This document shows, piece after piece, positions 309 to 18,131 of a DNA stretch of 64,000 nucleotides. Source of the DNA: Bacteroidota bacterium. Lineage in GTDB: Bacteria > Bacteroidota > Bacteroidia > B-17B0 > Aurantibacillaceae. Where the stretch lies: assembly GCA_021155905.1 (NCBI GenBank), contig JAJNBG010000027.1, positions 1 through 64,000 of the forward strand. The letters are read 5' to 3'. Numbering within the stretch: the stretch's first letter is position 1; the number at the start of each line of letters is the position of its first letter. A model generated the notes under the pieces. It saw only the letters and a program-made list of their open reading frames with translations. It did not search any database and was not told the DNA's origin. A program made the position numbers and the translations under genes.

Positions 309-338
309 AAAACCCTGATAGAAATATCAGGGTTTTTT
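309..338 (+). terminator. Rho-independent terminator after rpoC
   Basis: AACCCTGATA (311-320) and TATCAGGGTT (325-334) form a perfect 10-bp stem with a four-base loop, followed by a run of T. It sits about 90 bases after the rpoC stop and separates the polymerase operon from the surface-protein array. Confidence 0.9.
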
Positions 339-346
339 GTTTCGCT

Positions 347-406
347 CAAATGTGCCAAAAACCCGTTTAATGGTAGGAAGATGGAGAAATAAATGGGGTA
401 TATTTG
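347..406 (+). promoter_or_regulatory. Array promoter 1: shared upstream element, palindrome and -7 box
   Basis: The -7 box TATATTTG is at 399-406 and fits the Bacteroidota consensus TAnnTTTG; the ATG follows at 426. Upstream, 347-376 repeats almost base for base at 7740 and 11432. It contains CCGTTTAATGG (363-373), a copy of the palindrome CCGTTTAACGG with one change that still allows G-T pairing. The centre lies 31 bases before the -7 box, as in the other two copies. No clear -33 TTG is present, which suggests an activator-dependent promoter. Confidence 0.7.
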
Positions 407-425
407 ATGCGGATTTACCAGAGCT

Positions 426-3400
426 ATGAAAAAACTATTGTCGATTTTTATTTTTATTCTATGTTCATCTGGAGCTATTTATGCGCAAGCACCTTCTGTA
501 TGCTTTAACGGAACAAACCAATCTAATTTATTTGGCCCTACAGGGTCTTCCCCCTTATCTTTAGCACACGCTGATTTTAATAATGATGGCAAATTAGATA
601 TTGCCACTGCAAATAGAGTGTCTAACGATATTTCTGTTTTGTTAGGAACTGGCACAGGATCCTTTGCAACAGCGGTAAATTATAGCTGTAATGTTGGGCC
701 TTATTCCATAATTACTTCTGATTTTAATGGAGATGGAAATGTGGATATTGCAACTGCAGATTATGATTCAAATAGTTTATCGGTGTTGTTTGGCTTTGGA
801 AATGGAACATTTTCTACTACTGTTAATTATCCAGTTGGATCTAATCCAATGTCACTAGCATCAGCTGATCTTAATAGTGACGGCAAAATGGATATAGTAG
901 TAGCAAATTATGGTAATTCCGGCATTTCTGTTTTATTGGGATCTGGTAATGGTATTTTTAATCCAGCTAATACTTATACTGTTGGATTTGGTCCAATGGT
1001 TATCAAAACTGTTGATCTTAATAATGATGGTAATAAAGATTTAGTCACTTGTAATTGGGGTAATAATACGTTATCAGTATTGTCGGGTCTCGGAAATGGT
1101 TCTTTTGGAAGTGTCGTGAGTTACAATATCGGCATACATCCGAAATCAATGACATGCGCTGATTTTAATGGCGATGGTAATACTGACATTGTTACTGCTA
1201 ACACACAGGACTACAGCGTTCTGCTTGGAACAAGTAGTGGTACATTCGGCAGTGCGATTACTTATACAGTTAACTCCTCGGGCCAATATTCAATAATATC
1301 TGATGATTTTGATAAGGATTTTAAGCAAGATATATTGATCGTTAATTCACGTAATCTCAGTTTTTTTCAGGGTAGTGGAACAGGCAGTTTTACCTTTCAG
1401 GTGAAATATAACTTGCACGCCTGGGAAGCAATTGTCGCAGATTTTAATGGAGATGGAAACCTAGACATAGCCGGCATATATACAGAGGGTGTTACCCTTT
1501 TATTTGGAAAGGCAAACGGAATTTTTGAATCTGCACTCAATTATGATATAGCGGGAAATGCGCCTTATAGTTTAGTCTCCGGAGATTTTAATAAAGATGG
1601 TCATACTGATATTGCAGCCTCAAGTATTGGCACACAGAACATCTCTGTAGTGTTTGGTTTGGGCAACGCTTCAATGTCTGCGCCTGTTAGTTATTCAACA
1701 GATATAAGTCCTCGATCAATTATTTCAACTGATTTAAATGGTGATGGTAATTTAGATTTAGTAGCATCAAATATGAATTCCAGTACTATGTCTGTTTTTT
1801 TGGGATCGGCTACTGGAGTTTTTGTTCAAGCGGTTAGTTACCCAATTAATTCTTCTATACCTTTAAATTTAATTAGCGCTGATTTTAATGCAGATAGCAA
1901 GGCAGATATAGCAATAGCAAGTGTTGGCGACATTTCTGTACTTCTGGGACTTGGAACGGGAGGTTTTTTACCGCCACTTAACTACGCTATCGGTCATTCT
2001 CCAATAGCTTTGACCAGTAATGATTTTAATAATGATGGGTATGTAGATATTACGTTTACTGATGCAAACTCTAATGAGGCAGTTGTCTTGCTAGGCGATG
2101 GAGCCGGAGCATTTACTACTGGTAATAGCTACAGTATCGGTCAGTATCCAGAATCTATAATTTCTGGTGATTTTAACGGCGATGGGAATCAAGATTTGGC
2201 AACTGCTAATAATACTTCAAACGACGTTTCTGTATTGTTAGGTTTAGGAACAGGTTTGTTTTCTGGCGCTGTAACTTATTCTGTTGGGTTAAATATAAAG
2301 TCAATAACCTCCGCGGATTTAAACAGGGATAATAAGCCGGATTTAATTGTTGCCAATAATACTTTTGGCCTGGGGAATGTCTCTATTTTAATGGGTTCGA
2401 GTACAGGTACATTTGGGCAGCCAATAAGTTATGCAGTAGGTTCAGCTCCCAATGCAGTTATTACCGCTGATTTTAATGAGGATGGGAATATAGATATTGC
2501 AACCGCAAATTTAGGAGCAAATAACGTAGGAATATTAATTAACAGTTCAGTCTCGCTGAATCCTCCTAACAGTATTTGTGCTGGCAATAGCGCTACGTTG
2601 ACCGCAATAAACGCTTCCTCATATGTCTGGAGCACTGGAGCAGTCTCTAATAGCGTTATTATTAATCCTACTGTAAGCACAGCTTATACAGTTACTGGTA
2701 CAAACCTAGGTGGTTGTTCGTCTGTAATTTCTTTTTCGATAGAGGTTCTGACATCTTTTCCGACATTGTCGATAACAGCTTCTGCAAATTCTGTTTGTGT
2801 GGGATCTTCAATAGATTTTACCGCAAGCGGTGCAAACACTTATTCTTGGAGTACAGGCGAATCGTCGCCAAATATTACAATTACTCCAGCAGTAAGCTCT
2901 ACATACACTGTTATCGGAGAGAATGTTTGTGGCAATTTATCACAATCTATTACTGTAAATATTGACTCAACATGTACTGATGTTTGGCCTGGCGATGCCA
3001 ATTCTGATGGTACAGCAGACAATCTGGACGTTCTGGAGCTCGGATTACATTATACACAAACAGGCCCGGCAAGAACAATGGCCAGCAATGCCTGGCAATC
3101 TTATTTTGCAAACAACTGGCCAGGAACGATCACTAATGGAAAAAATTTAAATCATAGTGATTGCAATGGAGACGGAATCATCAATGATAGTGATACGTTG
3201 GCTATATATAATAATTATGGCTTAATTCATACATTTAAAACAGCTCAAACAAATACAATTAACCCGGTGTTGACAATTATTCCTGATCAAGCATCGGTTG
3301 TAAAAGGCACATGGGGATCAGCTTCTATTAATATAGGAAGTGCAACGGATCCAATCAATAATATCAATGGCGTGGCTTTCACTATTGACTTTGATAATTC

Positions 3401-3947
3401 GTTAATTGAAACTAATAACATTTATATTGAGTATCAAAATTCCTTTCTGGACGCCGGTCAAAATTTATATTTCAGGAAATTAGATTTTGCAAATGGCAAA
3501 ATATATACTGCTATCACACACACTCTGGCTAATAATGCGAACGGCTTTGGTAAAATTGCGACCCTGCATTATCAGATCAAATCCAGTTTAACAACGGACG
3601 AAACATGTAGTCTCGGATTAATTCAAGCTAACAAATCAGATGCATCCGGTAATATCGTGCCGTTATCATCAGGAGTAGGAATTTTCTTAGTAAGTGGCAC
3701 AAGTGTTGGTTTTAATCTTATTTCCATAAGTCCAAATCCAACCAATGGTTTCCTAACCTTAAGCTCAAAAACTGACTTGCAAAAAATCGAAGTACTTTCA
3801 GTAACAGGACAGACCATGCTAACTGAAATTCCAACCGGCACTTCTCATACATTAAGTTTAGAAAGCTTTGCTAATGGCATTTACTTTGTTAATGTGCATC
3901 AAAACGATCGCATTGTGAAGAGAGAGAAAGTTGTATTGAATAAATAA
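426..3947 (+). CDS. Secreted FG-GAP repeat protein with dockerin-like, cohesin-like and T9SS domains (array member 1)
   Basis: A 1173-residue exported protein. A signal peptide (MKKLLSIFIFILCSSGAIYAQ) is followed by 14 FG-GAP/VCBS-type repeats at residues about 49-690, each with a calcium-loop core such as DFNNDGKLD or DFNGDGNVD, spaced about 49 residues apart; these should fold as beta-propellers. Two Ig-like repeats (about 705-850) follow. A dockerin-like pair starts near residue 852 (DANSDGTADNLD and DCNGDGIINDSD), then a cohesin-like beta-sandwich (about 945-1090), then a T9SS type A sorting domain (about 1098-1173, SPNPTNG to VVLNK). The product is expected to cross the outer membrane by T9SS and be attached to or released from the surface. 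FG-GAP proteins often act in adhesion, but the ligand here cannot be inferred. It is first of five tandem paralogues sharing the C-terminal module. Confidence 0.9.
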   Translation: MKKLLSIFIFILCSSGAIYAQAPSVCFNGTNQSNLFGPTGSSPLSLAHADFNNDGKLDIATANRVSNDISVLLGTGTGSFATAVNYSCNVGPYSIITSDFNGDGNVDIATADYDSNSLSVLFGFGNGTFSTTVNYPVGSNPMSLASADLNSDGKMDIVVANYGNSGISVLLGSGNGIFNPANTYTVGFGPMVIKTVDLNNDGNKDLVTCNWGNNTLSVLSGLGNGSFGSVVSYNIGIHPKSMTCADFNGDGNTDIVTANTQDYSVLLGTSSGTFGSAITYTVNSSGQYSIISDDFDKDFKQDILIVNSRNLSFFQGSGTGSFTFQVKYNLHAWEAIVADFNGDGNLDIAGIYTEGVTLLFGKANGIFESALNYDIAGNAPYSLVSGDFNKDGHTDIAASSIGTQNISVVFGLGNASMSAPVSYSTDISPRSIISTDLNGDGNLDLVASNMNSSTMSVFLGSATGVFVQAVSYPINSSIPLNLISADFNADSKADIAIASVGDISVLLGLGTGGFLPPLNYAIGHSPIALTSNDFNNDGYVDITFTDANSNEAVVLLGDGAGAFTTGNSYSIGQYPESIISGDFNGDGNQDLATANNTSNDVSVLLGLGTGLFSGAVTYSVGLNIKSITSADLNRDNKPDLIVANNTFGLGNVSILMGSSTGTFGQPISYAVGSAPNAVITADFNEDGNIDIATANLGANNVGILINSSVSLNPPNSICAGNSATLTAINASSYVWSTGAVSNSVIINPTVSTAYTVTGTNLGGCSSVISFSIEVLTSFPTLSITASANSVCVGSSIDFTASGANTYSWSTGESSPNITITPAVSSTYTVIGENVCGNLSQSITVNIDSTCTDVWPGDANSDGTADNLDVLELGLHYTQTGPARTMASNAWQSYFANNWPGTITNGKNLNHSDCNGDGIINDSDTLAIYNNYGLIHTFKTAQTNTINPVLTIIPDQASVVKGTWGSASINIGSATDPINNINGVAFTIDFDNSLIETNNIYIEYQNSFLDAGQNLYFRKLDFANGKIYTAITHTLANNANGFGKIATLHYQIKSSLTTDETCSLGLIQANKSDASGNIVPLSSGVGIFLVSGTSVGFNLISISPNPTNGFLTLSSKTDLQKIEVLSVTGQTMLTEIPTGTSHTLSLESFANGIYFVNVHQNDRIVKREKVVLNK

Positions 3948-4044
3948 ATCAATTCAACAGTACTAAGTTCTAAACAGTATATCATGTTTTAGGCCCTATT
4001 GCAGAAAATCTGCTTATCTGTAAGATTTGTATCTCTGTATTTTG

Positions 4045-4052
4045 TAAATTTG
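4045..4052 (+). promoter_or_regulatory. -7 box of array member 2
   Basis: TAAATTTG matches TAnnTTTG and lies 15 bases before the ATG at 4067. The palindrome and conserved block found before members 1, 3 and 4 are absent from the 119-base gap here. This gene therefore has a different upstream control region, or is partly read through from member 1, after which I see no strong terminator. Confidence 0.6.
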
Positions 4053-4066
4053 ATAAAAGATTTATT

Positions 4067-7000
4067 ATGAGAATTATTTTATTTGCTTTCTTGATTATAA
4101 GCACAAGATTTCTTGGTCAGGTATGTTTTGATTCTATTACATCACGGATCTCATACATACCTGGAGGCTGCCAAAAATTTGTTACTGGGGATTTTAATGA
4201 AGATGGAAAACTTGATGTAGTGGTGCCTAACTCATCTACTTATTATTTTGCAGTTTTATTGGGCAATGCACAAGGAGGCTTTACGAGCCAAACCACTTAT
4301 ACAACCTCGTATGCTGCAAAAAACGTAGTAAGCGCAGATGTTAATAATGATAATCATAAAGATCTTGTTTTTTTAAGTTATTACGGTACTCCAAGCATGC
4401 TCACGGTTGCACTTGGTAATGGCAACGGAACTTTTACTGAAGTAACCACATTTTCGGTTACAACTACAAATGGTAGTTATTTAGATGTGAGAGATATTAA
4501 TAATGATACGCATTTAGATATTGTTACATTAATTTCAGGGCCATCTTTTACGTCTGCATTTCAATATAATTATGGAAACGGAAACGGACAATTCCTAACA
4601 TCCAGCACTTTTAATACAGGAATTGCATTCAGTTATACCTATTTAAAAAATGATTTTAATGCGGATGGAAAAGTAGATTACGCGTCCGTTACACAATCAA
4701 ACAATATTTCATTTATTTATGGCACAACTAACGGCTCTTTTTCTTCACCCGCAAATATAATACCAATAAATCATCCGGTATCATTAGAAATTTTTGATTA
4801 CAATAATGATTCTAAGCAGGATCTTGCGATTGCGTATGGTAGCAATAACGATTCACTTGGTATTTATACAGGAGATGGCACAGGGCAGTTTACATTATTA
4901 AATGCGGTCAAAATACCGGGCGTTACAAACGGATATCCTTACACAACCGGTGTTTCTGTTTTACTTTCTTCAGATATAAACGGTGATACTTACCAAGATA
5001 TTCTAGTGCATACTCAAGGAAGTTTTTTTCTTGTTCTTTTAAATGATGGCGCTGGTAATTTTACACCTGGCGCTAAATTTTCAATTGGAATCGCATTGTA
5101 TGATGTGTTATTAAAAGATATTAATAATGACGGGAACAAAGATCTTTTGCAGTTATATAGCAATACATCGGGTAAGTTTGTGGTGAATTTAAACACACCA
5201 TCTTCGGCACGGTTCGAAAAATCAAGACATATTTTGGTTTCAGGTTCACCTTTTGAAATTTCAACCGCAGATTTTGATCATGATGGGCATAACGATATTG
5301 CTACAGCTGCAGATGGCCAAATAACGGTACTTTATGGAGCCGGTAATGGCGAAACAGATCAAATTAAAGGCCATGGTACTGCTTCTACAAACTGGGCCAT
5401 GGACGTTGCCGATTTTAATAACGATGGATGGATGGATATGTTTTCGGCATCAAAAGTTTATATTAACACTGGTAGCAGAACTTTTAGTTTAGCCTTAAAT
5501 GGACTAAATGCGTCAGCTTATGAAGTAGATAAAGGAGATTTTAATAACGATGGGAACATTGATATCTTAATCCCAAATGATATGTTTAATAATATTATTG
5601 TGAAATTTGGAAATGGGGCAGGGGCGTTTCCTACAAGCACTTCGGCCGTCGTGGGTTCTGCACCATTGTCTACAACAGTTGCTGATTTTAATAATGATAA
5701 TTTTGATGATGTAGCCACAATTATTAACACAGCTCAACAGTTAAGTATTAGCATGAATAATGGAGCAGGGCAGTTTCTAACTGCTGTTACATATACAGCT
5801 AATGCCAGACCATTAATTGTAAGAAGTGGCGATTTAAACAAAGACGGAAACGTTGATCTTGTTATAGCAAATTTTACTTCGGGTGGCACACAAGGTACAG
5901 TTAGATTGTTGTATGGTAATGGCACAGGAACTTTTCCGACGCAAACGTCTGTTATTTTTAACGGAACAGTTGCTCCACAAGGCATGGTGTTAGAAGACAT
6001 CAACAACGATTCGTATTTAGATGTTGCTGTTTCGCACGAAACTACAGTGCCTTTGTCTTTTATTACGCTGTACTATAGTGATGGTGCCGGCGGATTAAAA
6101 CCACCTGTATACTATTACAATACCAATAAATCATACGATGTTGCTTTTGTTGATTACAATGGTGATGGGGTAAAAGACATGATTTCGGCTGATAAAAAAA
6201 TTCAAGGCTTAAGTATATTATTTGGACGAACCCCGGTTATTAATTTTGGGATAAGTGATACGACCATTTGCGCCGGCATGCCCATTACAATAACACCTGG
6301 TGGGGCTATTACCTATACATGGTCTGGCGTTACACCTCCAACCGGTGTATTTACACCTACAACTTCCACAACCTATACACTCGTAGGCGAAAACGCCTGT
6401 GGTTTTGGAACAAACCAACTTACCATTAATGTCATTCAATCAACGCCTACATTATCGGTAACGCAAATTTCTACAACTGTTTGCGAAGGCTCCTCCGTGC
6501 AAGTGCAGGCTAGTGTTAGCGATAATTATACTTGGTTTAATGGAGCAACTACACAAAGCATAAGTATTGTAGGATATAATGATTCATTAGTAACCGTATC
6601 AAGTGTCAACATTTGTGGTGTTGCCACTTCGAGTTTGGCAATTATAACCAATACGCTATGCCAGGATGTTTGGCCGGGGGATGCAAACAGCGATGGAGTC
6701 GCAGATAACTTAGATGTGTTGGAACTAGGCTTGCATTTTACTCAAACAGGCTCTGCACGATCAACAACCAGCAATACATGGCAATCCTATTTTGCCAATA
6801 ACTGGACAGGTACCATCACTACCGGCAAAAATTTAAATCACAGTGATTGTAATGGGGATGGGATCATCAACGCTGATGATACTTTGGCTATTTATAATAA
6901 TTATGGTTTGAATCATGCATTTAAACCTGTTCAAACAGCAACGGTCAATCCGCAGTTAAGTATCATTCCTGACCAGTCTTCTGTTGTAAAAGGTTCCTGG

Positions 7001-7648
7001 GGAACAGCATCCATTTATTTAGGAGATGCGACGAATACCATTAATAATATAAATGGCATCGCTTTTACAATTGATTTTGATAATACACTGATCGAAACCA
7101 ATAGCATTTACATTGAGTACCAAAATTCCTTTTTGGATGCCGGACAAAATTTGGATTTCAGAAAATTGAATTTTGCCAGTGGTAAAATTTATACTGCCAC
7201 CACGCATACTGTAAATAACAATGTGAGTGGTTTTGGAAAAATTGCCACTCTGCATTACCAGATCAAATCCAGTTTAACAACCGACGAAGTATTGAATTTT
7301 GCATTGATTCAGGCTAATCAATCGGATGCTTCCGGTATTATTTCTCCATTAACCTCAGGAACCGGCACTTTAATGACTATTGGTTCAAGTGTTGGTTTCC
7401 ATGAGTTAAATGGAAGTATAGTTTCAATTAGCCCCAACCCAACCAATGGTTTTTTTACTGTCAAGTCAAAAACTGATTTGCAAAAAATTGAAGTACTTTC
7501 CATAACAGGACAGGCCATGCTAACTGAAATCCCAGCCAGCACTTCTCATATGTTAAATTTAGAAAGCTTTGCAAATGGCATTTACTTTGTTAATGTGTAT
7601 CAAAATGACCGTATTGTGAAGAGAGAAAAAGTTGTGTTGAACAAGTAG
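4067..7648 (+). CDS. Secreted FG-GAP repeat protein with dockerin-like, cohesin-like and T9SS domains (array member 2)
   Basis: 1193 residues with the same plan as member 1. A signal peptide (MRIILFAFLIISTRFLGQ) precedes 14 FG-GAP-type loops (DFNEDGKLD, DVNNDNHKD and so on to DYNGDGVKD) over about residues 45-710, then two Ig-like repeats. The dockerin-like pair starts near residue 866 (DANSDGVADNLD, DCNGDGIINADD), followed by the cohesin-like domain and the T9SS sorting domain. The passenger differs much more from member 1 than the C-terminal module does: long stretches of the last 200 bases differ from member 1 at only scattered, mostly silent positions. This suggests recent duplication or gene conversion of the 3' module. 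Role: a T9SS-exported surface or extracellular protein, possibly adhesive; the ligand is unknown. Confidence 0.9.
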   Translation: MRIILFAFLIISTRFLGQVCFDSITSRISYIPGGCQKFVTGDFNEDGKLDVVVPNSSTYYFAVLLGNAQGGFTSQTTYTTSYAAKNVVSADVNNDNHKDLVFLSYYGTPSMLTVALGNGNGTFTEVTTFSVTTTNGSYLDVRDINNDTHLDIVTLISGPSFTSAFQYNYGNGNGQFLTSSTFNTGIAFSYTYLKNDFNADGKVDYASVTQSNNISFIYGTTNGSFSSPANIIPINHPVSLEIFDYNNDSKQDLAIAYGSNNDSLGIYTGDGTGQFTLLNAVKIPGVTNGYPYTTGVSVLLSSDINGDTYQDILVHTQGSFFLVLLNDGAGNFTPGAKFSIGIALYDVLLKDINNDGNKDLLQLYSNTSGKFVVNLNTPSSARFEKSRHILVSGSPFEISTADFDHDGHNDIATAADGQITVLYGAGNGETDQIKGHGTASTNWAMDVADFNNDGWMDMFSASKVYINTGSRTFSLALNGLNASAYEVDKGDFNNDGNIDILIPNDMFNNIIVKFGNGAGAFPTSTSAVVGSAPLSTTVADFNNDNFDDVATIINTAQQLSISMNNGAGQFLTAVTYTANARPLIVRSGDLNKDGNVDLVIANFTSGGTQGTVRLLYGNGTGTFPTQTSVIFNGTVAPQGMVLEDINNDSYLDVAVSHETTVPLSFITLYYSDGAGGLKPPVYYYNTNKSYDVAFVDYNGDGVKDMISADKKIQGLSILFGRTPVINFGISDTTICAGMPITITPGGAITYTWSGVTPPTGVFTPTTSTTYTLVGENACGFGTNQLTINVIQSTPTLSVTQISTTVCEGSSVQVQASVSDNYTWFNGATTQSISIVGYNDSLVTVSSVNICGVATSSLAIITNTLCQDVWPGDANSDGVADNLDVLELGLHFTQTGSARSTTSNTWQSYFANNWTGTITTGKNLNHSDCNGDGIINADDTLAIYNNYGLNHAFKPVQTATVNPQLSIIPDQSSVVKGSWGTASIYLGDATNTINNINGIAFTIDFDNTLIETNSIYIEYQNSFLDAGQNLDFRKLNFASGKIYTATTHTVNNNVSGFGKIATLHYQIKSSLTTDEVLNFALIQANQSDASGIISPLTSGTGTLMTIGSSVGFHELNGSIVSISPNPTNGFFTVKSKTDLQKIEVLSITGQAMLTEIPASTSHMLNLESFANGIYFVNVYQNDRIVKREKVVLNK

Positions 7649-7660
7649 TCAGCGCCCTTT

Positions 7661-7683
7661 TCAGTTCGGGCGGAGTCGAGAAC
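7661..7683. repeat. Dispersed intergenic repeat (GTTCGGGCGGAGTCGAGAAC type)
   Basis: TCAGTTCGGGCGGAGTCGAG followed by AAC lies 12 bases after the stop of array member 2. It is one of at least five related copies in this window, all between genes. Confidence 0.6.
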
Positions 7684-7693
7684 AATATAAATT

Positions 7694-7730
7694 AAAAACC
7701 CTGTCCGCTAGCTATCGGGCGGGGTTTTTT
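7694..7730 (+). terminator. Terminator after array member 2
   Basis: AAAACCC and CCG on the left pair with CGG and GGGTTTT on the right around a loop containing CTAGCTAT, and a run of six T follows. The stem is imperfect. It ends the transcript of member 2 just before the promoter of member 3. Confidence 0.8.
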
Positions 7731-7737
7731 GTTTCGC

Positions 7738-7798
7738 TGAAATGTGCCAAAAACCCGTTTAACGGTAAGAAGTTGGAGAAATAATTGAATTATATTTG
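7738..7798 (+). promoter_or_regulatory. Array promoter 3: shared upstream element, palindrome and -7 box
   Basis: The -7 box TATATTTG is at 7791-7798. The perfect palindrome CCGTTTAACGG is at 7755-7765, with its centre 31 bases before the box. The block 7740-7769 is almost identical to those at 347 and 11432, and here the similarity to promoter 1 extends further downstream (GGAGAAATAA near 7775). A shared activator or repressor site is the simplest reading. Confidence 0.75.
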
Positions 7799-7816
7799 GA
7801 GAAATTTAGCGGACCC

Positions 7817-10800
7817 ATGAAAAAAATTATTTTTTTATTATTTATTGGACTTTTTTTTACTAAAGGAATAAAAGCACAAATTAGCGATTCATATTTTCCT
7901 GATATAGAACCTAAAGAAAATGGAAAAATTCTGTGCCATTTAAAATATCACAACAAAATTATTATTGGCGGTTCAAGTTTCATAAATGCGAAAGATTTTC
8001 CTTCGGTTATCTGTGTTGATACTCTTGGTAATACATTATGGAATACCGCTATAAATGATTCTAGTTCATATACCCTTTTTAGTGGCAATGGTATTTATAA
8101 ATTAATGGATTCTGGTGACGGATATGTGTTTGCATTATTTGATCAAGCTATGGCTAATGAGATATGGAAAATTGATGGAACAACGGGGATGATAGTTTGG
8201 AAAAAACAAATACCGTATTCCACTTATCGGCATATGATTAACTATGATGCAAATAAATTTATAATTTCATATTCAACTGCTACGACATCATCAGGAAAGA
8301 AGCGTATAGCTTTTTTTAGCAAATTGACGGGCGACACTTTATACACTAAAAGTATAGGCATTGCAAATCAGAGATATGGGTTAGCAATTGATTCACAAAA
8401 AAATATTTATTATACAAATGCTGATTCAATTCATAAATTGAATTTCAGCCTACCTCATAATAAAATATGGTCAAATGCTTTCCCTGTAGCTCAAATCAAT
8501 GAGTATCAGGGTATTTATTGTGATACTGTACAAAATGAGGTGTTTTATTTTGGTAACAATAGTGCCTCTTCCTGGAAAAATCCTAAAATTGTTAAAGTGA
8601 ATTCAACGACGGGAGCCTTTATTTCATATTTTTCCGTGCCTGTTTATGCGGATGCTGAATTTCAGAATCTTAGCGCAACGAACAGTTTTTTATATTTAAA
8701 TTGGCGACATTTGACCGTTGGAGGAGGGGTATACCCGTACATGATTACAAAGTACGATAAATCAAGTGGGACTGCCGCATGGCATACTAACTATTCATTT
8801 ATTGGAAATGGTGCTCCGCCTAGCACTTATCATAGTGGAAATGGTTCTTCTGCTATGTCTATTGATATTGATAATAACGGAGATATCTACGCTACGGGAT
8901 ATTATGGCGATGCGAATGATGCACCTGAGAATTGGGGCATAATTAAATTAAATGGTTCTACCGGTAATATTTCTTTTGAGAAAACGATAACAGAAGACAG
9001 TCTTCATGATAATAATATAAGTTCAGGGCTGGCTGCATGCGTTATTAACAATCAACCTTATTTTGTTGGTAATCTGGAAACCTCACATAAATTATATTTT
9101 GAACGATCCAAAGTAGCTTATGTTAAATTAGACGCATCTACAGGTAATACGGTTTTTAAAAAATATTTTGACGGCACTTATAAATTTCGTTCACGCGTTT
9201 TAGCAATTGAGCGTTATCCCCAAAACCAGACTTTGGTGTTAAGTCAGGTTGGACGGGCGATAAATGTTGAGATGCTGGATCCGGATAAAAACATTTTATG
9301 GAGAAAAACATTATCTAAAGATTATTATTTATTTGGATCAAACTTAAGTGTTTCCCAAAATGGAGAAATATATGTAAGTGGTTACTCTGCTAAAGAGTAT
9401 AATACTTTTCCATATTATAACGCTTCAACTGATTCAATTTTTATATTTAAACTTAATAGCGCTGGTAATCTGCTAGGATTCAGTTCCTTTTATGTGAATC
9501 AAACCAAAGTATCACCGATAGACTTAATAGCAGATAACTCTTCAGCATTTATTTTTTATCAGAAGAATTACACGAGTGTTTTTTACAGAAAATATAATGG
9601 GTCAACTATATCAGCTGAGTCTACCACAAGTATGAATTACGTGAAACTAAATCCTAATTTAACTCCTGGTACACCAACTGTGTTTTATAAACAAAATTAT
9701 TTAGTTGAGCAAAATTCTGCGATATTGCAAATTGCAGCAACTGGTCCTTCCGGTTCTGCATTGTATGAGATCGATAAAACAACTTTGGCTTTGAGCGTTG
9801 CGGCACCTCTTCCTGTTAGCAAGATCAATGCAATCAATTCTGTTTATAAGTTAGATCCTGCTAGAACGATTATTTGTGGACGTAATTTTATGAATTATGG
9901 ATCTATAGTTTGCTATAACGTTAATATACTTGACACAATTTGGACAAAAGTGTTAAATACGGGTTCATCAACCCAGGTGATTAAAGGTGTGGCAGATCCA
10001 CAGAAAAATTATTTTTACACTATAAGTTCTGATTCTTTAAATCTAGTTGTTAGGAAAGTTTCAGTTAATAATGGAAATTTAATTTGGACTTACACATATA
10101 ATGGACAAGTAAGTAATCAACATGATTTTCCAATGGATATTTCATACGATGATTTTAGAAAGAAAGTTGTCGTGTGTGGATTTAGAACTATTAATAATAA
10201 ACGCCAGTCTCTTACTATTATTCTCGATACCTTGGGTTCCGCTTTAGATACAATTATTAAGGTTGGAAGTTACGCTGGAAATAATGAAGCTCTTTGCGCA
10301 AGTACATTGTATGATGGTACAGAATGGATTGGTGGGTATGTAGATAATCACCCTGAGACTGGTTTTATTTCTGAAATTGCAGGTTCTTTTGCAAATGTCT
10401 GGCCTGGCGATGCCAACAGTGATGGAACCGCTGACAACTTAGATGTGTTAGAGCTTGGCTTGCATTTCACACAAACAGGCCCTGCCCGTGCAACAACAAG
10501 CAACACCTGGCAATCTTATTTTGCTAACAACTGGACAGGAACGATCACGAACGGGGAAAATTTAAACCACGCTGACTGCAATGGCGATGGAATCATCAAT
10601 GATAATGATACTTTGGCCATTTATAACAATTACGGAATGGCTCACTCTTTTAAACCGGTGCAAACTACCACAGTCAATCCGCAGTTAAGCATCATTCCGG
10701 ATCAATCAGCTGTTGTAAAAGGAACATGGGGAACAGCCTCCATTTATTTAGGAGGTACAACAAGTCCAATTAGCAACATCAATGGCCTTGCTTTCACTAT

Positions 10801-11377
10801 TGATTTTGATAATACCTTAATTGAAACCAATAATGTTTACATCGAATACCAAAATTCATTTTTAGATGCCGGACAAAACTTAGATTTCAGGAAAATGGAT
10901 TTTGCTAATGGAAAAATCTTTACGGCTACAACTCATACCTTGAATAGTAACGTCAGCGGTTTTGGTAGAATTGCAACTCTGCATTATCAAATTAAATCTA
11001 CGTTAACAAGTGCTCAGGTTTTAAATTTAGGAATATCACAAGCTAAACAATCTGATGCTTCCGGGGTAATTTCTCCTTTAACTTCAGGCTCTGGCTCATT
11101 AACAGCAACAATCGATGTTGGATTGGCTGAATTCTTAAATGCCAATGTAATTTCTGTGAGTCCAAATCCAACCAGTGGTTCATTAACAATAAATTCAAAA
11201 ACTGAAGTGCAAAAAATCGAGGTTGTTTCTATTGCTGGTCAGGTATTACTGTTGGAAGCCCCAACTTCCTTAAACCACCAGTTACATTTAGAAAATTTTG
11301 CGAATGGTATTTACTTTGTCAACCTATATCAAAATGATCGCATTGTGAAGAGAGAGAAAATTATTCTGAATAAATAG
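7817..11377 (+). CDS. Secreted PQQ-like propeller protein with dockerin-like, cohesin-like and T9SS domains (array member 3)
   Basis: 1186 residues from the ATG at 7817. An in-frame TTG at 7796 overlaps the -7 box, so it is not used, and the ATG gives a normal signal peptide (MKKIIFLLFIGLFFTKGIKAQ). The passenger (about 25-855) has recurrent segments such as KIDGTTGMIVWKK, KLNGSTGNISFEK and KLDASTGNTVFKK, the mark of PQQ-like beta-propeller blades; here they probably form a structural or binding propeller, not an enzyme. The conserved module follows: dockerin-like pair from about residue 859 (DANSDGTADNLD, DCNGDGIINDND), cohesin-like domain, and T9SS sorting domain ending IILNK. The cohesin-like DNA is close to that of member 4. 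Function beyond surface export is unknown. Confidence 0.88.
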   Translation: MKKIIFLLFIGLFFTKGIKAQISDSYFPDIEPKENGKILCHLKYHNKIIIGGSSFINAKDFPSVICVDTLGNTLWNTAINDSSSYTLFSGNGIYKLMDSGDGYVFALFDQAMANEIWKIDGTTGMIVWKKQIPYSTYRHMINYDANKFIISYSTATTSSGKKRIAFFSKLTGDTLYTKSIGIANQRYGLAIDSQKNIYYTNADSIHKLNFSLPHNKIWSNAFPVAQINEYQGIYCDTVQNEVFYFGNNSASSWKNPKIVKVNSTTGAFISYFSVPVYADAEFQNLSATNSFLYLNWRHLTVGGGVYPYMITKYDKSSGTAAWHTNYSFIGNGAPPSTYHSGNGSSAMSIDIDNNGDIYATGYYGDANDAPENWGIIKLNGSTGNISFEKTITEDSLHDNNISSGLAACVINNQPYFVGNLETSHKLYFERSKVAYVKLDASTGNTVFKKYFDGTYKFRSRVLAIERYPQNQTLVLSQVGRAINVEMLDPDKNILWRKTLSKDYYLFGSNLSVSQNGEIYVSGYSAKEYNTFPYYNASTDSIFIFKLNSAGNLLGFSSFYVNQTKVSPIDLIADNSSAFIFYQKNYTSVFYRKYNGSTISAESTTSMNYVKLNPNLTPGTPTVFYKQNYLVEQNSAILQIAATGPSGSALYEIDKTTLALSVAAPLPVSKINAINSVYKLDPARTIICGRNFMNYGSIVCYNVNILDTIWTKVLNTGSSTQVIKGVADPQKNYFYTISSDSLNLVVRKVSVNNGNLIWTYTYNGQVSNQHDFPMDISYDDFRKKVVVCGFRTINNKRQSLTIILDTLGSALDTIIKVGSYAGNNEALCASTLYDGTEWIGGYVDNHPETGFISEIAGSFANVWPGDANSDGTADNLDVLELGLHFTQTGPARATTSNTWQSYFANNWTGTITNGENLNHADCNGDGIINDNDTLAIYNNYGMAHSFKPVQTTTVNPQLSIIPDQSAVVKGTWGTASIYLGGTTSPISNINGLAFTIDFDNTLIETNNVYIEYQNSFLDAGQNLDFRKMDFANGKIFTATTHTLNSNVSGFGRIATLHYQIKSTLTSAQVLNLGISQAKQSDASGVISPLTSGSGSLTATIDVGLAEFLNANVISVSPNPTSGSLTINSKTEVQKIEVVSIAGQVLLLEAPTSLNHQLHLENFANGIYFVNLYQNDRIVKREKIILNK

Positions 11378-11393
11378 ATCTTGAAGCATAAAT

Positions 11394-11424
11394 TAAAACC
11401 CCGGTAGAGATGTCGGGGTTTCTG
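11394..11424 (+). terminator. Terminator after array member 3
   Basis: AAACCCCG (11396-11403) and CGGGGTTT (11414-11421) form a perfect 8-bp stem with a ten-base loop, followed by a short T-rich tail. It lies 18 bases after the stop of member 3. Confidence 0.8.
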
Positions 11425-11431
11425 TTACACT

Positions 11432-11491
11432 GAAATGTGCCAAAAACCCGTTTAACGGTAAGGTTTTCCTAATGTTTTATTTTTACATTTA
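11432..11491 (+). promoter_or_regulatory. Array promoter 4: shared upstream element, palindrome and -7-like box
   Basis: The perfect palindrome CCGTTTAACGG is at 11448-11458 inside the third copy of the conserved block (11432-11462). The best -7-like box, TACATTTA (11484-11491), differs from TAnnTTTG at the last base, and its distance from the palindrome centre is again 31 bases. Beyond about 11463 the sequence no longer resembles promoters 1 and 3. Confidence 0.65.
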
Positions 11492-11510
11492 CCAAAATAA
11501 AGTTTTTGGT

Positions 11511-13277
11511 ATGAAAAAAATATGTTTAGTCGTTTTATTATTTAGCCTTGTAAAAGGTAGCTATTCTCAATGTCCAACAATTCCTGTATCGGAATCGTCT
11601 GCGACATTAACATGTGTAAATCCATCCGCTTATATTAGCGTGACTACAACAGTGTCACCGGTAGATTATATATGGGTTGGACCAAACATTATTGGAGCTG
11701 ATAATACTTCAAGCATTATGGTTGGTTGGCCAGGAGCCTATAGTTACACTCTAACGGATATATCAAACGGATGCATGACAACCGGGACAATTAGTGTTTT
11801 CTCCAATACTTTAATACCATCTCTTTTTTTGATGTCGAATACAGCAACTTTAACCTGTATGAGCCCTACTGTGTCACTTGATGCCAGCTCGACTGAGCAA
11901 GATGCCTACTTCAACTGGCAAGGTCCCGGCATTTTGAGTAACCCATCTTTAGGATCAGTTTCTGTATCTCAACCCGGTGAGTATACTTGTACTGTAACCA
12001 ATACAATTAACGGATGTTCAAATACATCAATTGTGAGCGTAGATATGGATTTAATGGTACCTACAGGAACGATCATTGCATCTAGTTATACCGTATGCGC
12101 AGGCTCATCAGTAGTACTTTCGTCCACTAATAGTGTGACAGCCATTTCATATCACTGGAACACAGGAGAAATCACCCCGGTTATTACGGTTACGCCGTCA
12201 ATTACACAAATGTATGATGTTACTTTTACGAATAACACAAATGGTTGTAGCTCTAGTTCCCAAATAAATATCGCAGTTGATAATAGTTGCCAGGACGTTT
12301 GGCCGGGTGATGCCAACAGCGATGGAGTTGCAGACAATCTAGACGTATTGGAACTTGGCTTGCATTATACGCAAACTGGCCCGACAAGAGCATCAACTAG
12401 CAATAACTGGCAGTCGTATTTTGCCAGCAACTGGACAGGAACAATCACGAACGGAAAGAACCTGAATCACAGCGACTGTAATGGCGATGGAACGATCAAC
12501 AATAATGATACATTGGCAATTTTTAATAATTATGCATTGACACACACATTTAAACCGGCTCACACAACAACTGTTAGTCCACAATTAAGTATTGTCCCTG
12601 ATCAATCGGCGGTTGTTAAAGGTGCCTGGGGAACAGCTTCCATTTATTTAGGTGGTACAACAAGTCCAATTAGTAACATCAATGGCCTTGCATTCACTAT
12701 TGATTTTGATAACACACTCATCGAAACCAATAATATTTACCTCGAATATCAAAATTCGTTTCTGGATGCCGGCCAAAATTTAGATTTTAGAAAACCGGAT
12801 TTTTCCAACGGAAAAATATATACGGCTACGACACATACAATTAACGGCAATGTGAGCGGGTATGGTAAGATAGCTACCCTGTATTACCAGATTAAATCTA
12901 CTTTGTCGAGCTCGCAAGTTTTAAATCTTGGGCTCACTCAAACCGTTAAATCTGATGCTGCCGGTTCAGTCACTCCTTTAACCTCTGGTTCAGGATCATT
13001 AACAGCAACTATTAATGTTGGTTTACTGGATATTTTAGATAATAATGTTATTTCTTTTAGTCCTAATCCAACCAATGGTTTGTTAATAATTGATTCTAAA
13101 ACTGAATTGCAAAAAATTGAAGTTGTTTCTATTACTGGGCAATTGTTATTAAGTGAAATTCCAACTATGGTTTCTCACACATTGCATTTAGATAATTTCT
13201 CAAACGGTATTTATTTTGTAAATGTTTATCAAAACGATCGCGTCTTGAGGAGAGAAAAAATTGTTTTGAATAAGTAG
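11511..13277 (+). CDS. Secreted Ig-like repeat protein with dockerin-like, cohesin-like and T9SS domains (array member 4)
   Basis: 588 residues from the ATG at 11511, which gives the signal peptide MKKICLVVLLFSLVKGSYSQ; an in-frame ATG at 11472 lies upstream of the -7-like box. This is the shortest array member. The passenger (about 21-258) consists of three Ig-like repeats with spaced cysteines and the Y-x-W-x-G and Y-x-x-T/V-T patterns usual in Bacteroidota adhesin-like proteins. The dockerin-like pair starts near residue 260 (DANSDGVADNLD, DCNGDGTINNND), then the cohesin-like domain and T9SS sorting domain. It has no large propeller, so it may be mostly a linker or scaffold. The cohesin-like part shares long near-identical DNA with member 3. 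Confidence 0.87.
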   Translation: MKKICLVVLLFSLVKGSYSQCPTIPVSESSATLTCVNPSAYISVTTTVSPVDYIWVGPNIIGADNTSSIMVGWPGAYSYTLTDISNGCMTTGTISVFSNTLIPSLFLMSNTATLTCMSPTVSLDASSTEQDAYFNWQGPGILSNPSLGSVSVSQPGEYTCTVTNTINGCSNTSIVSVDMDLMVPTGTIIASSYTVCAGSSVVLSSTNSVTAISYHWNTGEITPVITVTPSITQMYDVTFTNNTNGCSSSSQINIAVDNSCQDVWPGDANSDGVADNLDVLELGLHYTQTGPTRASTSNNWQSYFASNWTGTITNGKNLNHSDCNGDGTINNNDTLAIFNNYALTHTFKPAHTTTVSPQLSIVPDQSAVVKGAWGTASIYLGGTTSPISNINGLAFTIDFDNTLIETNNIYLEYQNSFLDAGQNLDFRKPDFSNGKIYTATTHTINGNVSGYGKIATLYYQIKSTLSSSQVLNLGLTQTVKSDAAGSVTPLTSGSGSLTATINVGLLDILDNNVISFSPNPTNGLLIIDSKTELQKIEVVSITGQLLLSEIPTMVSHTLHLDNFSNGIYFVNVYQNDRVLRREKIVLNK

Positions 13278-13280
13278 TAA

Positions 13281-13324
13281 AATTCCGATAGTATCGGGCG
13301 TTTGTTTTTATTGAAGTTAATTTG
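13281..13324 (+). promoter_or_regulatory. Hairpin and possible -7 box before array member 5
   Basis: CCGATA and TATCGG (13285-13297) form a 6-bp hairpin with a one-base loop, followed by a T-rich stretch; this may be a weak terminator for member 4. TTAATTTG at 13317-13324 is a possible -7 box, off consensus at the second base. The conserved block and CCGTTTAACGG palindrome are absent. Confidence 0.4.
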
Positions 13325-13343
13325 GGTAAATAAAATTAAGATT

Positions 13344-16019
13344 ATGAAGATAGTGCTATCAGTGATTGTTTTTATTATTTCATTTTGCAATGTTGTTATC
13401 GCACAAACTGAATTATGGGGAATGACAAGTAGAGGAGGTGCAAATGGAAGCGGAGTCATCTTTAAAACTGATAGCGTTGGAGATAACCAAATAGTAGAAT
13501 ATAACTTTGACACAATTGATGGCAAATATCCAAATGGTTCATTGGTAAGAGCATCTAATGGCTTGCTATATGGCGTTACCGAAGAGGGTGGTTTAAATAA
13601 TCTAGGTGTTTTATTTGAGTACGATCAAGTAAATCATGTTTTTACAAAATTAATTGATTTTGCTAATACCTTTGGGAGTAATCCAAATGGTTCATTAATT
13701 CAGGCTACCGATGGTATGCTATACGGAACATGCTATAACGGCGCAGTGTTTGGGTCGATGGGAACAATTTTTCAGTTCAATCCTAATACCTATTCTTTAA
13801 GTACAGTATATTCATTTGGATCGTCATCATTTGGGCAAAATCCCCGAGGAGCTTTAGTACAAGCATCAAACGGATTGTTTTATGGCACAACAAGTTATGG
13901 TGGTTGGTACAATAAAGGAACTATTTTTGAGTTTGACCCCATATCAGGAGTATATAACGATAAATATAATTTTATTGATGCGGTAGGTAGAGCACCAATC
14001 GGATCATTAATTGAAGCTGCCGATGGAAATCTATACGGCGTAACTGCTTTAGGTGGAGTACTCGATCAGGGTACTCTTTTTCAATATAATTATGTGAACG
14101 ATGTATTTACAAAAAAAATAGATTTTTCAACTGTCTCTATAGGTAAGAGACCTGGCTTGGGCGCTTCATTAATGCAAGCTACAGATGGTATGATTTATGG
14201 AACTACTATGTATGGCGGCTTAAATAATTATGGCCTCTTATACAAATTCGTCCCCGACTCATCTTTACTATATGACAAAACAAGTTTTAATTTTATACCA
14301 AACGGATCATATCCATTGACTCCTCTAGTTCAAACCTCTGGCGGAAAATTAATTGGAACAACTTGGGCTGGTGGTACAAGTACAAATGGAGGAACATTAT
14401 TAGAGTATGATCACACATCAAACACCTCGGTAAAGAAAATAGATTTCTTAAACTCAAATGGATTTTTGCCGACCTCGGCTCTAATTGAAACTTCTAATCA
14501 TAAACAACTTTCGGCATCGGTTATCAATACGGTTATTTGCGTTAATAATATGCTGAATGTGAGTTATACGGTTACCGGCCTTTATAACATTGGAAATACT
14601 GTTAGTTTAGAATTATCTGATGCCCTTGGATCATTTGTTAGTGCCGTTGTAATTAAAACAATTAGTATTGTATCAAATTCTACAGGAATGGTTTCTGCTC
14701 AAGTACCCATATCCACTCCTTTGGGTTCGGGTTATCGTGTCAGATTTAAAAGTTCTGATCCAATATTAATAGGGAATGATAATGGTACAAATATTACTAT
14801 TTATACACTTCCTATAGTAAATGCTTTTTCTAGTCCTTCAGTTATTTGCTCAGGTAGTTTTTTTGATATAATAGCAAATGGAGCTAATGATTATGTTTGG
14901 GATAATTTCAGTACAAATGATACATTAAAACATATTTATTCCTCTTCAGGATCTTACACGGTGATAGGTACTGATGTAAACGGGTGTGTAAATTCTGCTA
15001 CACTTACTATTTTTCTTGATACTACTTGTCAGTACGTGTATCCTGGAGATGTGAATAATGATTGGGAGGTGTCTAATTTAGATATCTTGGAGTTAGGACT
15101 ACATTCTTTAAAATCCGGGTTTCCTCGCTCAAGCATTAGTAATATATGGCAACCTAATTTTGCTAATAATTGGGTAGATACTTTATCAAATGGAAGTAAT
15201 TTAAATCATAGTGACTGCGACGGGAATGGAATAATTAATATCGACGATACGCTGGCTATCTATAATAATTATAATATGTGGAGAAATTATAAACCACTTC
15301 TATCAACAACCACAAATCCACAATTACATATAGTGCCTAATCAAGCAGCTGTTGCAAAAGGTTCTTGGGGAAGCGCATCGATTTATTTAGGTGACGTGTC
15401 AAATTCAGTTAATGATATTAATGGTATTGCATTTACGGTTTATTTCGATCACACTTTAATAGACCCAAATGAAATTTGGTTAGAATTTCCGAACTCATTC
15501 ATCAACTCATCTAATCAAAATTTACATTTTCGTAAACTGGATTTTATCAATGGATATTTGTATACAGCAACTACACATACTTTTAATAACAATGTCACTG
15601 GCAATGGATTAATTGGAATTTTACATTATAAAATACTAACGAGCCTAACAACAGATGAATTATTGAATGTTAGTCTTTTTCAGGCTAAGAAATCGAATGC
15701 TACCGGTGCAATTTCTCCATTAACCTCAGGAGCCGGCACTTTAATGGTTATGGGTTCAAGCGTTGGTTTGCAGGAATTAAATGGCAACGTTATTTTTGTT
15801 AGTCCAAATCCAACGAATGGCTTTTTGACAATTCATTCTTTAAGCCAACTACAAAAAATAGAACTGGTGTCAATTACCGGACAGGTGTTGTTAGCCGAAA
15901 TGCCATCTGGTAATTCTCACATATTTCATTTAGAGAATTTTGCCAACGGAATTTATTTTGTGAATACCTATCAAAATAATCACATAGTAAAAAGAGAGAA
16001 GATCATTTTGAATAAGTAA
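13344..16019 (+). CDS. Secreted GloVer-type repeat protein with degenerate dockerin-like, cohesin-like and T9SS domains (array member 5)
   Basis: 891 residues from the ATG at 13344 (signal peptide MKIVLSVIVFIISFCNVVIAQ); the in-frame TTG at 13302 would add a poor leader. The passenger has seven repeats of the GloVer/TIGR03803 type at about residues 23-375, for example LYGVTEEGGLNNLGVLFEYD and FYGTTSYGGWYNKGTIFEFD, which should form a beta-propeller. An unassigned beta-rich region and one Ig-like repeat follow. The C-terminal module starts near residue 562. It is the most diverged of the five: the first calcium loop reads DVNNDWEVSNLD with Trp in place of the usual Gly, while the second (DCDGNGIINIDD) is kept. 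The cohesin-like and T9SS domains (ending IILNK) are present. Confidence 0.87.
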   Translation: MKIVLSVIVFIISFCNVVIAQTELWGMTSRGGANGSGVIFKTDSVGDNQIVEYNFDTIDGKYPNGSLVRASNGLLYGVTEEGGLNNLGVLFEYDQVNHVFTKLIDFANTFGSNPNGSLIQATDGMLYGTCYNGAVFGSMGTIFQFNPNTYSLSTVYSFGSSSFGQNPRGALVQASNGLFYGTTSYGGWYNKGTIFEFDPISGVYNDKYNFIDAVGRAPIGSLIEAADGNLYGVTALGGVLDQGTLFQYNYVNDVFTKKIDFSTVSIGKRPGLGASLMQATDGMIYGTTMYGGLNNYGLLYKFVPDSSLLYDKTSFNFIPNGSYPLTPLVQTSGGKLIGTTWAGGTSTNGGTLLEYDHTSNTSVKKIDFLNSNGFLPTSALIETSNHKQLSASVINTVICVNNMLNVSYTVTGLYNIGNTVSLELSDALGSFVSAVVIKTISIVSNSTGMVSAQVPISTPLGSGYRVRFKSSDPILIGNDNGTNITIYTLPIVNAFSSPSVICSGSFFDIIANGANDYVWDNFSTNDTLKHIYSSSGSYTVIGTDVNGCVNSATLTIFLDTTCQYVYPGDVNNDWEVSNLDILELGLHSLKSGFPRSSISNIWQPNFANNWVDTLSNGSNLNHSDCDGNGIINIDDTLAIYNNYNMWRNYKPLLSTTTNPQLHIVPNQAAVAKGSWGSASIYLGDVSNSVNDINGIAFTVYFDHTLIDPNEIWLEFPNSFINSSNQNLHFRKLDFINGYLYTATTHTFNNNVTGNGLIGILHYKILTSLTTDELLNVSLFQAKKSNATGAISPLTSGAGTLMVMGSSVGLQELNGNVIFVSPNPTNGFLTIHSLSQLQKIELVSITGQVLLAEMPSGNSHIFHLENFANGIYFVNTYQNNHIVKREKIILNK

Positions 16020-16029: not shown

Positions 16030-16084
16030 TTGCGAACGGAGTCGGGAAGCTATAATTGTTCTCGACTTCGCTCGAACTGACAAG
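16030..16084. repeat. Inverted pair of dispersed intergenic repeats
   Basis: GCGAACGGAGTCGGGAAGC (near 16032-16050) and TTCTCGACTTCGCTCGAAC (near 16059-16077) are facing copies of the repeat also seen at 231, 7661, 26261 and 28390. They lie between the convergent array and lipoprotein gene. Together they could fold into a long hairpin and act as a bidirectional transcription end. Confidence 0.6.
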
Positions 16085-16706: not shown

Positions 16707-17717
16707 TTACAATTTTAGTTTTCTCAGACTTTTAAAAGCAGCACGTTCTACTTCTGAAATTTCATCCAGCATGTTCGCACTTTCCTCAAAGTCTTTTTGT
16801 TCATTTAATCTTCCTTTGTAAATACGACCCATGTGCACAGCGCTTGCGCGCCATAAATCTCCCGCTTTTGTAAATTCGTCAGAGATCTTTAAAAGCTGAT
16901 CATTATTGGTGTAGTTACTGGCTTCTTCCAAAAAGGCGGCATATAAAAACCTAAAGCCTCCGCCACCTGTTCCTATCTCTTCCTGCATCCTTACAATTTG
17001 TCCGAGGTATAAAGCGGCTTTACGCGGGCCTAACTTATCTCTCCATTTACGAATGTGATTGGCTGTATAGTGAATTCCTTTGGCGCCTACCATCGGCCCC
17101 GGTAAACTTAACATTTCAAAAGTAGTACGCTTTATAGCTTTTGGAATTGCTTGTGCTATTTGTTCTCTTGATACATCCTTTACATTCTCAGGATAATATA
17201 CATGTCCTCTTGGAGCCAAAGCCCCTTTAGCAAAACGTACTTTTAGCATATCCTCTTCCGAAAGCGTGGTAACTATTTCCATTACTGGATCACTCACTAA
17301 ATATTGTCCGTTCTCTTTTCCGTATACTACAATATTATGAGCATTAAAATGAAAACGGTACTCAGGTGGAAAGTAAGGTAAATTAAATACACCTACCTGG
17401 CATCCAACCGGATTGCCTATTTCTATTTGTTTATTTAAATAATCGTATGCTTCTTTTTCGTTGCTGAATTTTTTGCGGTTCACTTTTACTCCCAACAATT
17501 TACTGGCTCTGCTAAAGATCCAGCCCGGCATGCTACGGTAAGAAATAGCGGGCCCACCACTGATCTGTAAGAAAGGAATGTGTAAATAAAAAATACCATT
17601 GCCTAATCCAAATACTAATGGTTCCGACATAAAATCCATACCATGGTATTTTAGTAAACTCGTGGCTACACCATTTTCGCAGTGAGCGGATTGAATATGC
17701 TTAAACTGTTTTTCCAA
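16707..17717 (-). CDS. BtrH-like acyltransferase (BtrH N-terminal plus DUF4872-type region)
   Basis: 336 residues. The N-terminal half resembles the BtrH family, named after the butirosin enzyme that moves an acyl group from an acyl carrier protein to an amine. It has a papain-like set of candidate residues: Cys13 in AHCENG, His127 in FNAHN and Asp143 in VSDP. The C-terminal half (about 190-336) is helical, like the DUF4872 region usual in this family. The start is a TTG two bases after the stop of the upstream gene; no ATG is available before the conserved HCENG motif. It is the last gene of a four-gene operon with a ketosynthase III-like enzyme, so it may release or transfer a ketosynthase-made acyl chain. 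Substrate and acceptor are unknown, and no carrier protein is encoded nearby. Confidence 0.75.
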   Translation of the reverse strand: MEKQFKHIQSAHCENGVATSLLKYHGMDFMSEPLVFGLGNGIFYLHIPFLQISGGPAISYRSMPGWIFSRASKLLGVKVNRKKFSNEKEAYDYLNKQIEIGNPVGCQVGVFNLPYFPPEYRFHFNAHNIVVYGKENGQYLVSDPVMEIVTTLSEEDMLKVRFAKGALAPRGHVYYPENVKDVSREQIAQAIPKAIKRTTFEMLSLPGPMVGAKGIHYTANHIRKWRDKLGPRKAALYLGQIVRMQEEIGTGGGGFRFLYAAFLEEASNYTNNDQLLKISDEFTKAGDLWRASAVHMGRIYKGRLNEQKDFEESANMLDEISEVERAAFKSLRKLKL

Positions 17718-17719
17718 AA

Positions 17720-18118
17720 TTATCCTTTAAAATTCGTGAGTTCAGCAACGCTGATATCAAATGCTTTGGCATAAATGGCCAGTTTTTTTTCATTTAGTTT
17801 TCTAAACACTTCTGGTTTAAAATGGCGCTTGATATTAAATTTCCAAAATCCGGTGTAGCCCGAAAGTACCGCCAGATCCATTAAACGCAACTCCATAAAA
17901 TAAAACACCGGGCTTTTGTCACCGTTCTTTACGGCCAGTGCAGCTTCTTTCACGCGTTCGTGAATGTCTTCCCATGCGTTATCCAATGCATCTTTCTTCA
18001 CTTTCCAGCCTGTACTTAAACCTGTGCTATATTTTCCGTCTTTATCTTTTACATAACACAATTCGCGTGTCATGTGTGCCAGCGCTGATTTATCCTGTGG
18101 AAGATCTTCTTTTTTCAT
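17720..18118 (-). CDS. Uncharacterised 132-residue protein of the ketosynthase/BtrH operon
   Basis: 132 residues, no signal peptide or membrane segment, mixed charged and helical. Visible stretches include ALAHMTRELCYVKD, PVFYFMELRLMDLAVLSGYTG and IKRHFKPEVFRKL. I do not recognise a named domain. The gene lies between the DUF1702-like gene (13 bases upstream) and the BtrH-like gene, which starts two bases after its stop, so it is very likely co-translated and works in the same pathway, perhaps as a small helper protein. The LMDLAVLSGYTGFWKFNIKRHF segment with its run of aromatics is what I would use to find relatives. Confidence 0.7.
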   Translation of the reverse strand: MKKEDLPQDKSALAHMTRELCYVKDKDGKYSTGLSTGWKVKKDALDNAWEDIHERVKEAALAVKNGDKSPVFYFMELRLMDLAVLSGYTGFWKFNIKRHFKPEVFRKLNEKKLAIYAKAFDISVAELTNFKG

Positions 18119-18131
18119 TTTATAAAACTGT

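Follow-up and report, generated by a model that had tools for sequence, protein, structure and literature searches.

What kind of locus places five adjacent genes directly behind rpoC, with widely differing N-terminal passengers on one common C-terminal module? The window (the whole stretch of DNA that was analysed, 64,000 nucleotides) is the start of contig C36 in the draft genome of an uncultured Bacteroidota bacterium (4.06 Mb, 67 contigs), and its first bases lie inside rpoC. The answer that we favor, with a probability of roughly 0.7, is that this is a site of turnover in the set of T9SS-exported surface proteins, where passengers have been recombined onto an interchangeable module over evolutionary time.

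Five genes behind rpoC and their shared module

The ORF list bears out the first-pass annotation of five co-oriented genes after rpoC: five plus-strand ORFs occupy positions 426-16019 downstream of the rpoC 3' end, with 205 nt between the end of the rpoC coding sequence and the start of g1, and the likely ATG starts of g1 to g5 are at 426, 4067, 7817, 11511, and 13344. By the ORF list and profile matches, complemented by alignment for g1 and g2 and by a genus search for g3, the passengers are FG-GAP in g1 (426..3947) and g2 (4067..7648), weakly PQQ-like in g3 (7817..11377), short and Ig-like in g4 (11511..13277), and composed of GloVer repeats in g5 (13344..16019), each followed by the shared module. 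Among the passenger types originally proposed, FG-GAP (g1 and g2) and GloVer (g5; TIGR03803, 249.6 bits) scored over the curated cut-offs, whereas the PQQ-like match in g3 (26.0 bits, cut-off 27.6) and the Ig-like match in g4 fell below theirs. A search at E 1e-8 detected the g3 passenger in none of the genus's other 19 genomes. None of the passengers was recognised as an enzyme in Pfam; the propeller and Ig-like ones suggest a role in adhesion.

Alignment places the modules, all on the plus strand, at 2973..3944 (g1), 6659..7645 (g2, also delimited in a predicted model), 10394..11374 (g3), 12288..13274 (g4), and 15027..16016 (g5, the most diverged of the five). At the protein level, the modules are 57-79% identical to one another, compared with 14-32% over aligned columns for the passengers, in line with the initial description of differing passengers on a common C-terminal part, although the module is slightly longer (324-330 aa) than the roughly 310 residues first estimated. 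The module consists of two dockerin-type calcium loops, a middle domain that is cohesin-like in the predicted model, and a Por_Secre_tail; in g2, profile matches and the predicted model assign approximately 6659-6934 to the dockerin-like part, 6935-7396 to the cohesin-like part, and 7412-7645 to the sorting domain. The T9SS sorting domain (TIGR04183 / PF18962) scored over the curated cut-off in all five genes, and the genome encodes the T9SS translocon component SprA (TIGR04189, 2414 bits). By this domain, the five proteins are predicted T9SS type A cargo, with export and surface anchoring predicted, and are presumably located on the surface. All five end in the domain typical of type A proteins, and the part that they share is about four times longer than that domain.

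Eight of the 41 module matches listed for this genome are full-length, including three outside the array, two of which adjoin on C4 and one lies on C58. As a control, we compared the C-terminal 330 residues of the 12 other T9SS-type ORFs that passed the filter in eight genome stretches (150 matches to the sorting domain are listed for the genome). Within the 45 best pairs, those other than array-array pairs matched over 64-205 residues with 21-37% identity, the exception being a tandem pair on C3 (58%). No description of this module or array was recognised among the listed titles and abstract beginnings of open-licence papers.

To the right of the array, positions 16707-20099 encode BtrH_N/DUF4872, DUF1702, and KAS-III-like genes, largely conserved in the genus. 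Farther downstream, the window encodes a subtilase with a T9SS sorting domain (29895-32696) and a multihaem cytochrome with TPR repeats (45977-48082).

The dockerin-like and cohesin-like parts

Both calcium loops, scored with a pattern that we take to be that of dockerins, are kept in 37 of 37 modules, 12 of which had been picked partly by their first loop, vs none of 11,100 shuffled stretches. The Pfam dockerin profile (PF00404) matched 12 of 14 modules at E up to 1 and scored over its cut-off in g2, counted with its neighbours, and in the G006 protein, with the other members in the window below it; the cohesin profile (PF00963) matched four of the 14 at E up to 1. For the middle domain (residues ~94-244 of the predicted model), 27 of the first 29 structure matches ranked by Z are titled cohesin, cohesin-dockerin, or scaffoldin (Z 8.2-10.6), the remaining two being 3kcp and 2o4e; the model thus points to a cohesin fold, although sharing a fold does not by itself show function. 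We dropped the fold of the dockerin-like part from consideration because residues 1-90 were modelled mostly under pLDDT 50 and the model was too poor.

These features raise the possibility, compatible with turnover, that members dock onto one another, dockerin-like part to cohesin-like part, in which case the module would be common to all of them because a mutual fit on the cell surface requires it. The retention of the loops, the cohesin-like model, and the fact that at E 0.01 the genome has a single cohesin match and three dockerin matches, all of them inside modules of this family, argue for such docking. Against it stand the subthreshold scores (23.1 bits for the cohesin match, in the C58 copy, vs a cut-off of 24.1, and the scarcity of dockerin scores over the cut-off), the poorly modelled N-terminal residues, passengers that are not known enzymes, and members in G004 and G009 that keep the sorting domain only; on balance, we consider docking possible but doubtful. 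More speculatively still, the exchangeable end module might combine a plug (dockerin-like), a socket (cohesin-like), and an export and anchor signal, such that recombined passengers would join a self-complementary, calcium-dependent surface lattice and the array would amount to an evolvable parts list. If docking is real, this would be an unusual natural display system. Dockerin-like and cohesin-like parts are united here on surface proteins other than recognised enzymes. Peer et al. are said to have described, in 2009, non-cellulosomal cohesin- and dockerin-like modules, and the likeness to the present case is the occurrence of such modules outside cellulosomes.

By the features tested, namely the single cohesin and three dockerin matches, all in family modules, and the lack of recognised enzymes, the array is not a cellulosome. 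The closest parallel of this kind is the predicted cellulosome-like system of Candidatus Stygibacter (Cloacimonadota), in which, according to the available part of that paper (PMC8542988), dockerin and cohesin are likewise predicted together with a conserved C-terminal surface-attachment domain. As presented there, however, the dockerins are on enzymes and the cohesins on a separate large scaffoldin-like protein, whereas here every protein combines both parts, and its passenger is not a recognised enzyme.

Probable turnover among relatives and the conflict between passengers and modules

In a set of species representatives (one genome per species), the rpoC end was found in 18 of the 20 genomes of the genus, our own included (G010 and G018 gave no rpoC match), and the BtrH_N/DUF4872 right-flank gene in 16 of 20, the G012 copy lying elsewhere (27% identity). 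The first-pass annotation had named identical gene order and passengers in all relatives, with congruent passenger and module trees, as evidence against a variable locus; instead, where the interval between rpoC and a right-hand flank lies on one contig, as in nine genomes, it contains 0 to 5 members, with differing passengers, between co-linear flanks. There are five members in our genome, three in G009 (one with the sorting domain only), two in G012 (where lipoprotein-like and trigger-factor genes flank the interval), one each in G006, G007, G013, and G004 (in the last, the sorting domain only), and none in G003 and G005; a decayed member in the G005 interval was sought by blastx, with no convincing match. 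If contig overlaps are followed, G017 has five members, and G019 has at least one on two contigs, whereas the stretches fetched for G001, G002, G008, G011, G014, G015, and G016 contain no module gene adjoining rpoC. Outside the genus, G024 carries two members directly after rpoC. The full module was detected at E 1e-60 in 28 of 87 family genomes, and linkage to rpoC by coordinates was seen in this genus and G024 only, contig breaks possibly hiding more.

A second genus of the family has similar arrays at other sites, with differing passengers on alike modules: three genes on C13 of G078 (passengers 32-37%, modules 78-82%), those on C37 of the same genome (35% and 72%), those of G060 (41% and 85%), and one pair in G087 (34% and 79%). 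The two G061 genes, separated by 7 kb (35% and 48%), and the outlying one of the three G087 members (49-51% in the module) do not fit this pattern. The range from 0 to 5 members between fixed flanks, together with the arrays of the second genus, provides a comparative series for change in the T9SS surface repertoire of Bacteroidota.

Several relatives have an ORF6N-type gene in the rpoC interval (by Pfam, L079:1477-2079 and L085:3559-4071; look-alikes by eye, L077:6961-7467 and L092:728-1351), and none was noticed in the window. Carriage on viral contigs was also considered and rejected, as none of the 38 stretches that matched a pattern encodes a relative.

Each of the two trees, passenger and module, contradicts the other. 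In the passenger tree (seven FG-GAP rows, several with long end branches), g2 groups with G017c59_3101 (support 100/99) and a g1+g2 group is rejected (p-AU 9.5e-5); in the module tree (25 rows), g1+g2 (97/97) and g3+g4 (98/90) are recovered and g2+G017c59 is rejected (p-AU 5.5e-4), each group tested having been named by the opposite half of the protein. With the module data of the seven rows alone, g2+G017c59 is rejected only at p 0.049, and g1+G013 is not rejected (p 0.43). Site patterns supporting g2+G017c59 and g1+g2, respectively, number 23:8, 25:13, 26:13, and 24:11 in the passenger with four different fourth taxa, and 2:14, 1:12, 2:8, and 5:12 in the module, flipping at the module border, where identity in the six pairs compared, 18-52% across passenger windows, rises abruptly to 78-85% in the first window of the module. 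Passenger class requires 15 changes on the module tree vs a shuffled mean of 14.9, that is, it does not cluster. The g3 module belongs to a starred clade with the modules of g4, G012_4008, G017c40_4043, and G019c258.

Traces of recombination through the conserved 3' ends, as had been proposed, are visible in relatives. Two G017 contigs whose passengers are 39% identical share their terminal 141 nt, and each of these ends has a 51-nt overlap with the start of a third contig. The first 141 nt of one of the two recur in the third contig at nt 707-847, and the paths separate at the stop codon of the module. These metagenome contig overlaps, in an assembly where the middle of the repeat is present once, would imply a two-copy repeat of ~937 nt, bounded by the first calcium loop and the stop codon. 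Reading L084 (G017 C59) in reverse, there is a frame break at ~700-730, before the sorting domain of the collapsed module copy, with the rest of that domain in another frame, which is either a real change or a consensus artefact. The two members of G024 have 97% identity over their final 111 nt; a 56-nt run is common to two other members of G017; and G012_7960 and g1 share a 47-nt exact run across genomes. At four-fold sites, g1 and g2 are 0.52 identical in the modules and 0.33 in the passengers, with saturation at 0.29, a weak test (p 0.029, one of 14 pairs, uncorrected). Gene 3 of G009 was examined as a chimera of a gene-1-like passenger (41%) and a gene-2-like tail and was too close to call, since over 219 nt its tail matches gene 2 at 85% and gene 1 at 83% identity.

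Taken together, these comparisons of species representatives support the view that the 3' module mediates exchange and copy-number turnover over evolutionary time, and we infer that homologous recombination is the agent. Each gene carries a separate passenger, in most cases made of propeller or adhesion-type repeats, on a C-terminal module that is interchangeable in this view; homologous recombination in the ~1-kb module would duplicate or delete whole units and join different passengers to one module lineage. Unequal recombination between modules would leave chimeric modules behind as units are gained or lost, and an exchange entering upstream and leaving inside the module would replace the passenger, with a species-specific set of surface proteins as the outcome. 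Tandem homology suffices for such recombination, and no special enzyme is necessary; no recombinase or reverse transcriptase was noticed on reading the ORF lists of the window.

Plain tandem duplication without recombination would also produce an array; the duplicates would be old, with passengers that diverged fast and a module kept similar by its role in export and anchoring. Consistent with this scenario, branch lengths of the passengers exceed those of the modules several-fold, and the window array contains no recent tract: the longest exact run among its 10 module pairs is 24 nt, against mean maxima of 23 and 21 in shuffles, and recent gene conversion inside the array was rejected, with none of the 10 pairs having an exact run beyond the shuffles. 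Within the genus, the dockerin-like and cohesin-like parts are also equally alike within and between arrays (72 vs 73% and 64 vs 62%); only the sorting domain is more similar within arrays (69 vs 57%, p 0.014), and therefore no general homogenisation is seen. Clustering of modules by genome within the genus was not significant (15 changes vs a shuffled mean of 16.0, as low in 47 of 200), whereas clustering by array over 37 modules from the two genera and G024 is strong (21 vs 28.0, as low in 0 of 200) but confounded with taxonomy. What makes duplication alone unlikely is that topologies named by the other half are rejected on both halves, that the sister modules of g3 and g4 lie under unrelated passengers, that the near-identical G017 modules deduced from contig overlaps lie under dissimilar passengers, and that in a pair at matching single-gene loci the module (58%) is no more conserved than the passenger (61%), compared with 79% and 32% for g1 and g2. 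An active diversity generator, in which frequent recombination makes cells of one population differ in the passengers displayed, could draw on the tandem homologous 3' ends, the near-identical G017 pair from the overlaps, and the changes in member number, but is highly improbable given the lack of a recent tract in the window array, modules only 63-78% identical in nucleotides, and no silent or partial cassettes seen there, so that the earlier suggestion that the locus lets the cell vary its surface is not supported.

Turnover by exchange over evolutionary time would, by analogy, work like domain rearrangement in Porphyromonas gingivalis Kgp, RgpA, and HagA, T9SS surface proteins for which domain rearrangement and allelic exchange are reported in the available part of PMC5266723. 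As described there, those proteins also combine a conserved C-terminal domain with combinatorial domains, and recombination is proposed as the source of variants; the variants occur among strains of one species and adhesin domains are exchanged, whereas the array analysed here is tandem, whole passengers differ between species, and the shared part is a dockerin-like/cohesin-like/sorting module.

Intergenic hairpins, the 5' block, and a short repeat

Terminator-like hairpins on the plus strand follow rpoC (309..336, by scan) and g2 (7704..7723, by scan and folding), a further one follows g3 (11396..11420, approximate ends, by folding), and a weak one follows g4 (13284..13298, by scan and folding), matching the hairpins originally read after members 2, 3, and, more weakly, 4; the scan found 16 hairpins vs 9.7 expected from shuffles. 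A 77-nt 5' block precedes g1 (330..406, motif at 348-375) and, with 90% identity, g3 (7722..7798, motif at 7740-7767), and its counterpart before g4 (11415..11491) is 65% identical in register with an exact motif at 11433-11460, all on the plus strand. The block is made up of a terminator end, a motif with a palindromic core, and TAnnTTTG. The latter lies 22-27 nt upstream of g1, g2, and g3 and is absent before g4 and g5, such that the promoter-like box once ascribed to each member stands for the first three; a sigma-70 promoter scan was uninformative (59 found vs 70.0 expected).

At up to three mismatches, the motif has 12 copies in the genome, none read backwards, which precede five module genes (g1, g3, g4, and two on C4) and other genes, some of them secreted or lipoprotein-like by eye. 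At up to five mismatches of 24, it was found for 10 of 29 module or tail genes, in nine cases 45-50 nt before the start, and was missing in the other 19, whereas none of 2000 control stretches reached five mismatches; G019 has a weaker copy. Sites before module-less genes occur in L119, L120, L121, L122, L123, and L124 and at L096:7087, with a gene that by eye is response-regulator-like directly upstream of one site in L122. The motif is a candidate operator of a small regulon, through which these genes would be jointly regulated. The 5' block shared by some of the genes could be a further recombination site, serving as a second homology arm that aids passenger exchange.

A short palindromic REP-like repeat lies at array edges or beside rpoC, at 252-263, 7668-7683 (a variant), and 16062-16073 in the window and, in other stretches, at L096:6570, L076:3834 and 3880, L078:7365, L079:1210 and 12530, and L092:1430. 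In a tally that is not genome-wide, because the stretches had been chosen for other reasons, the 64-kb window has two copies of its strict 12-mer, one at each array edge and oppositely oriented. A single copy, next to the C4 array, was counted in 182,747 bases sampled from elsewhere in the genome, and the 260,476 bases from relatives yielded six, every one of them within the rpoC interval.
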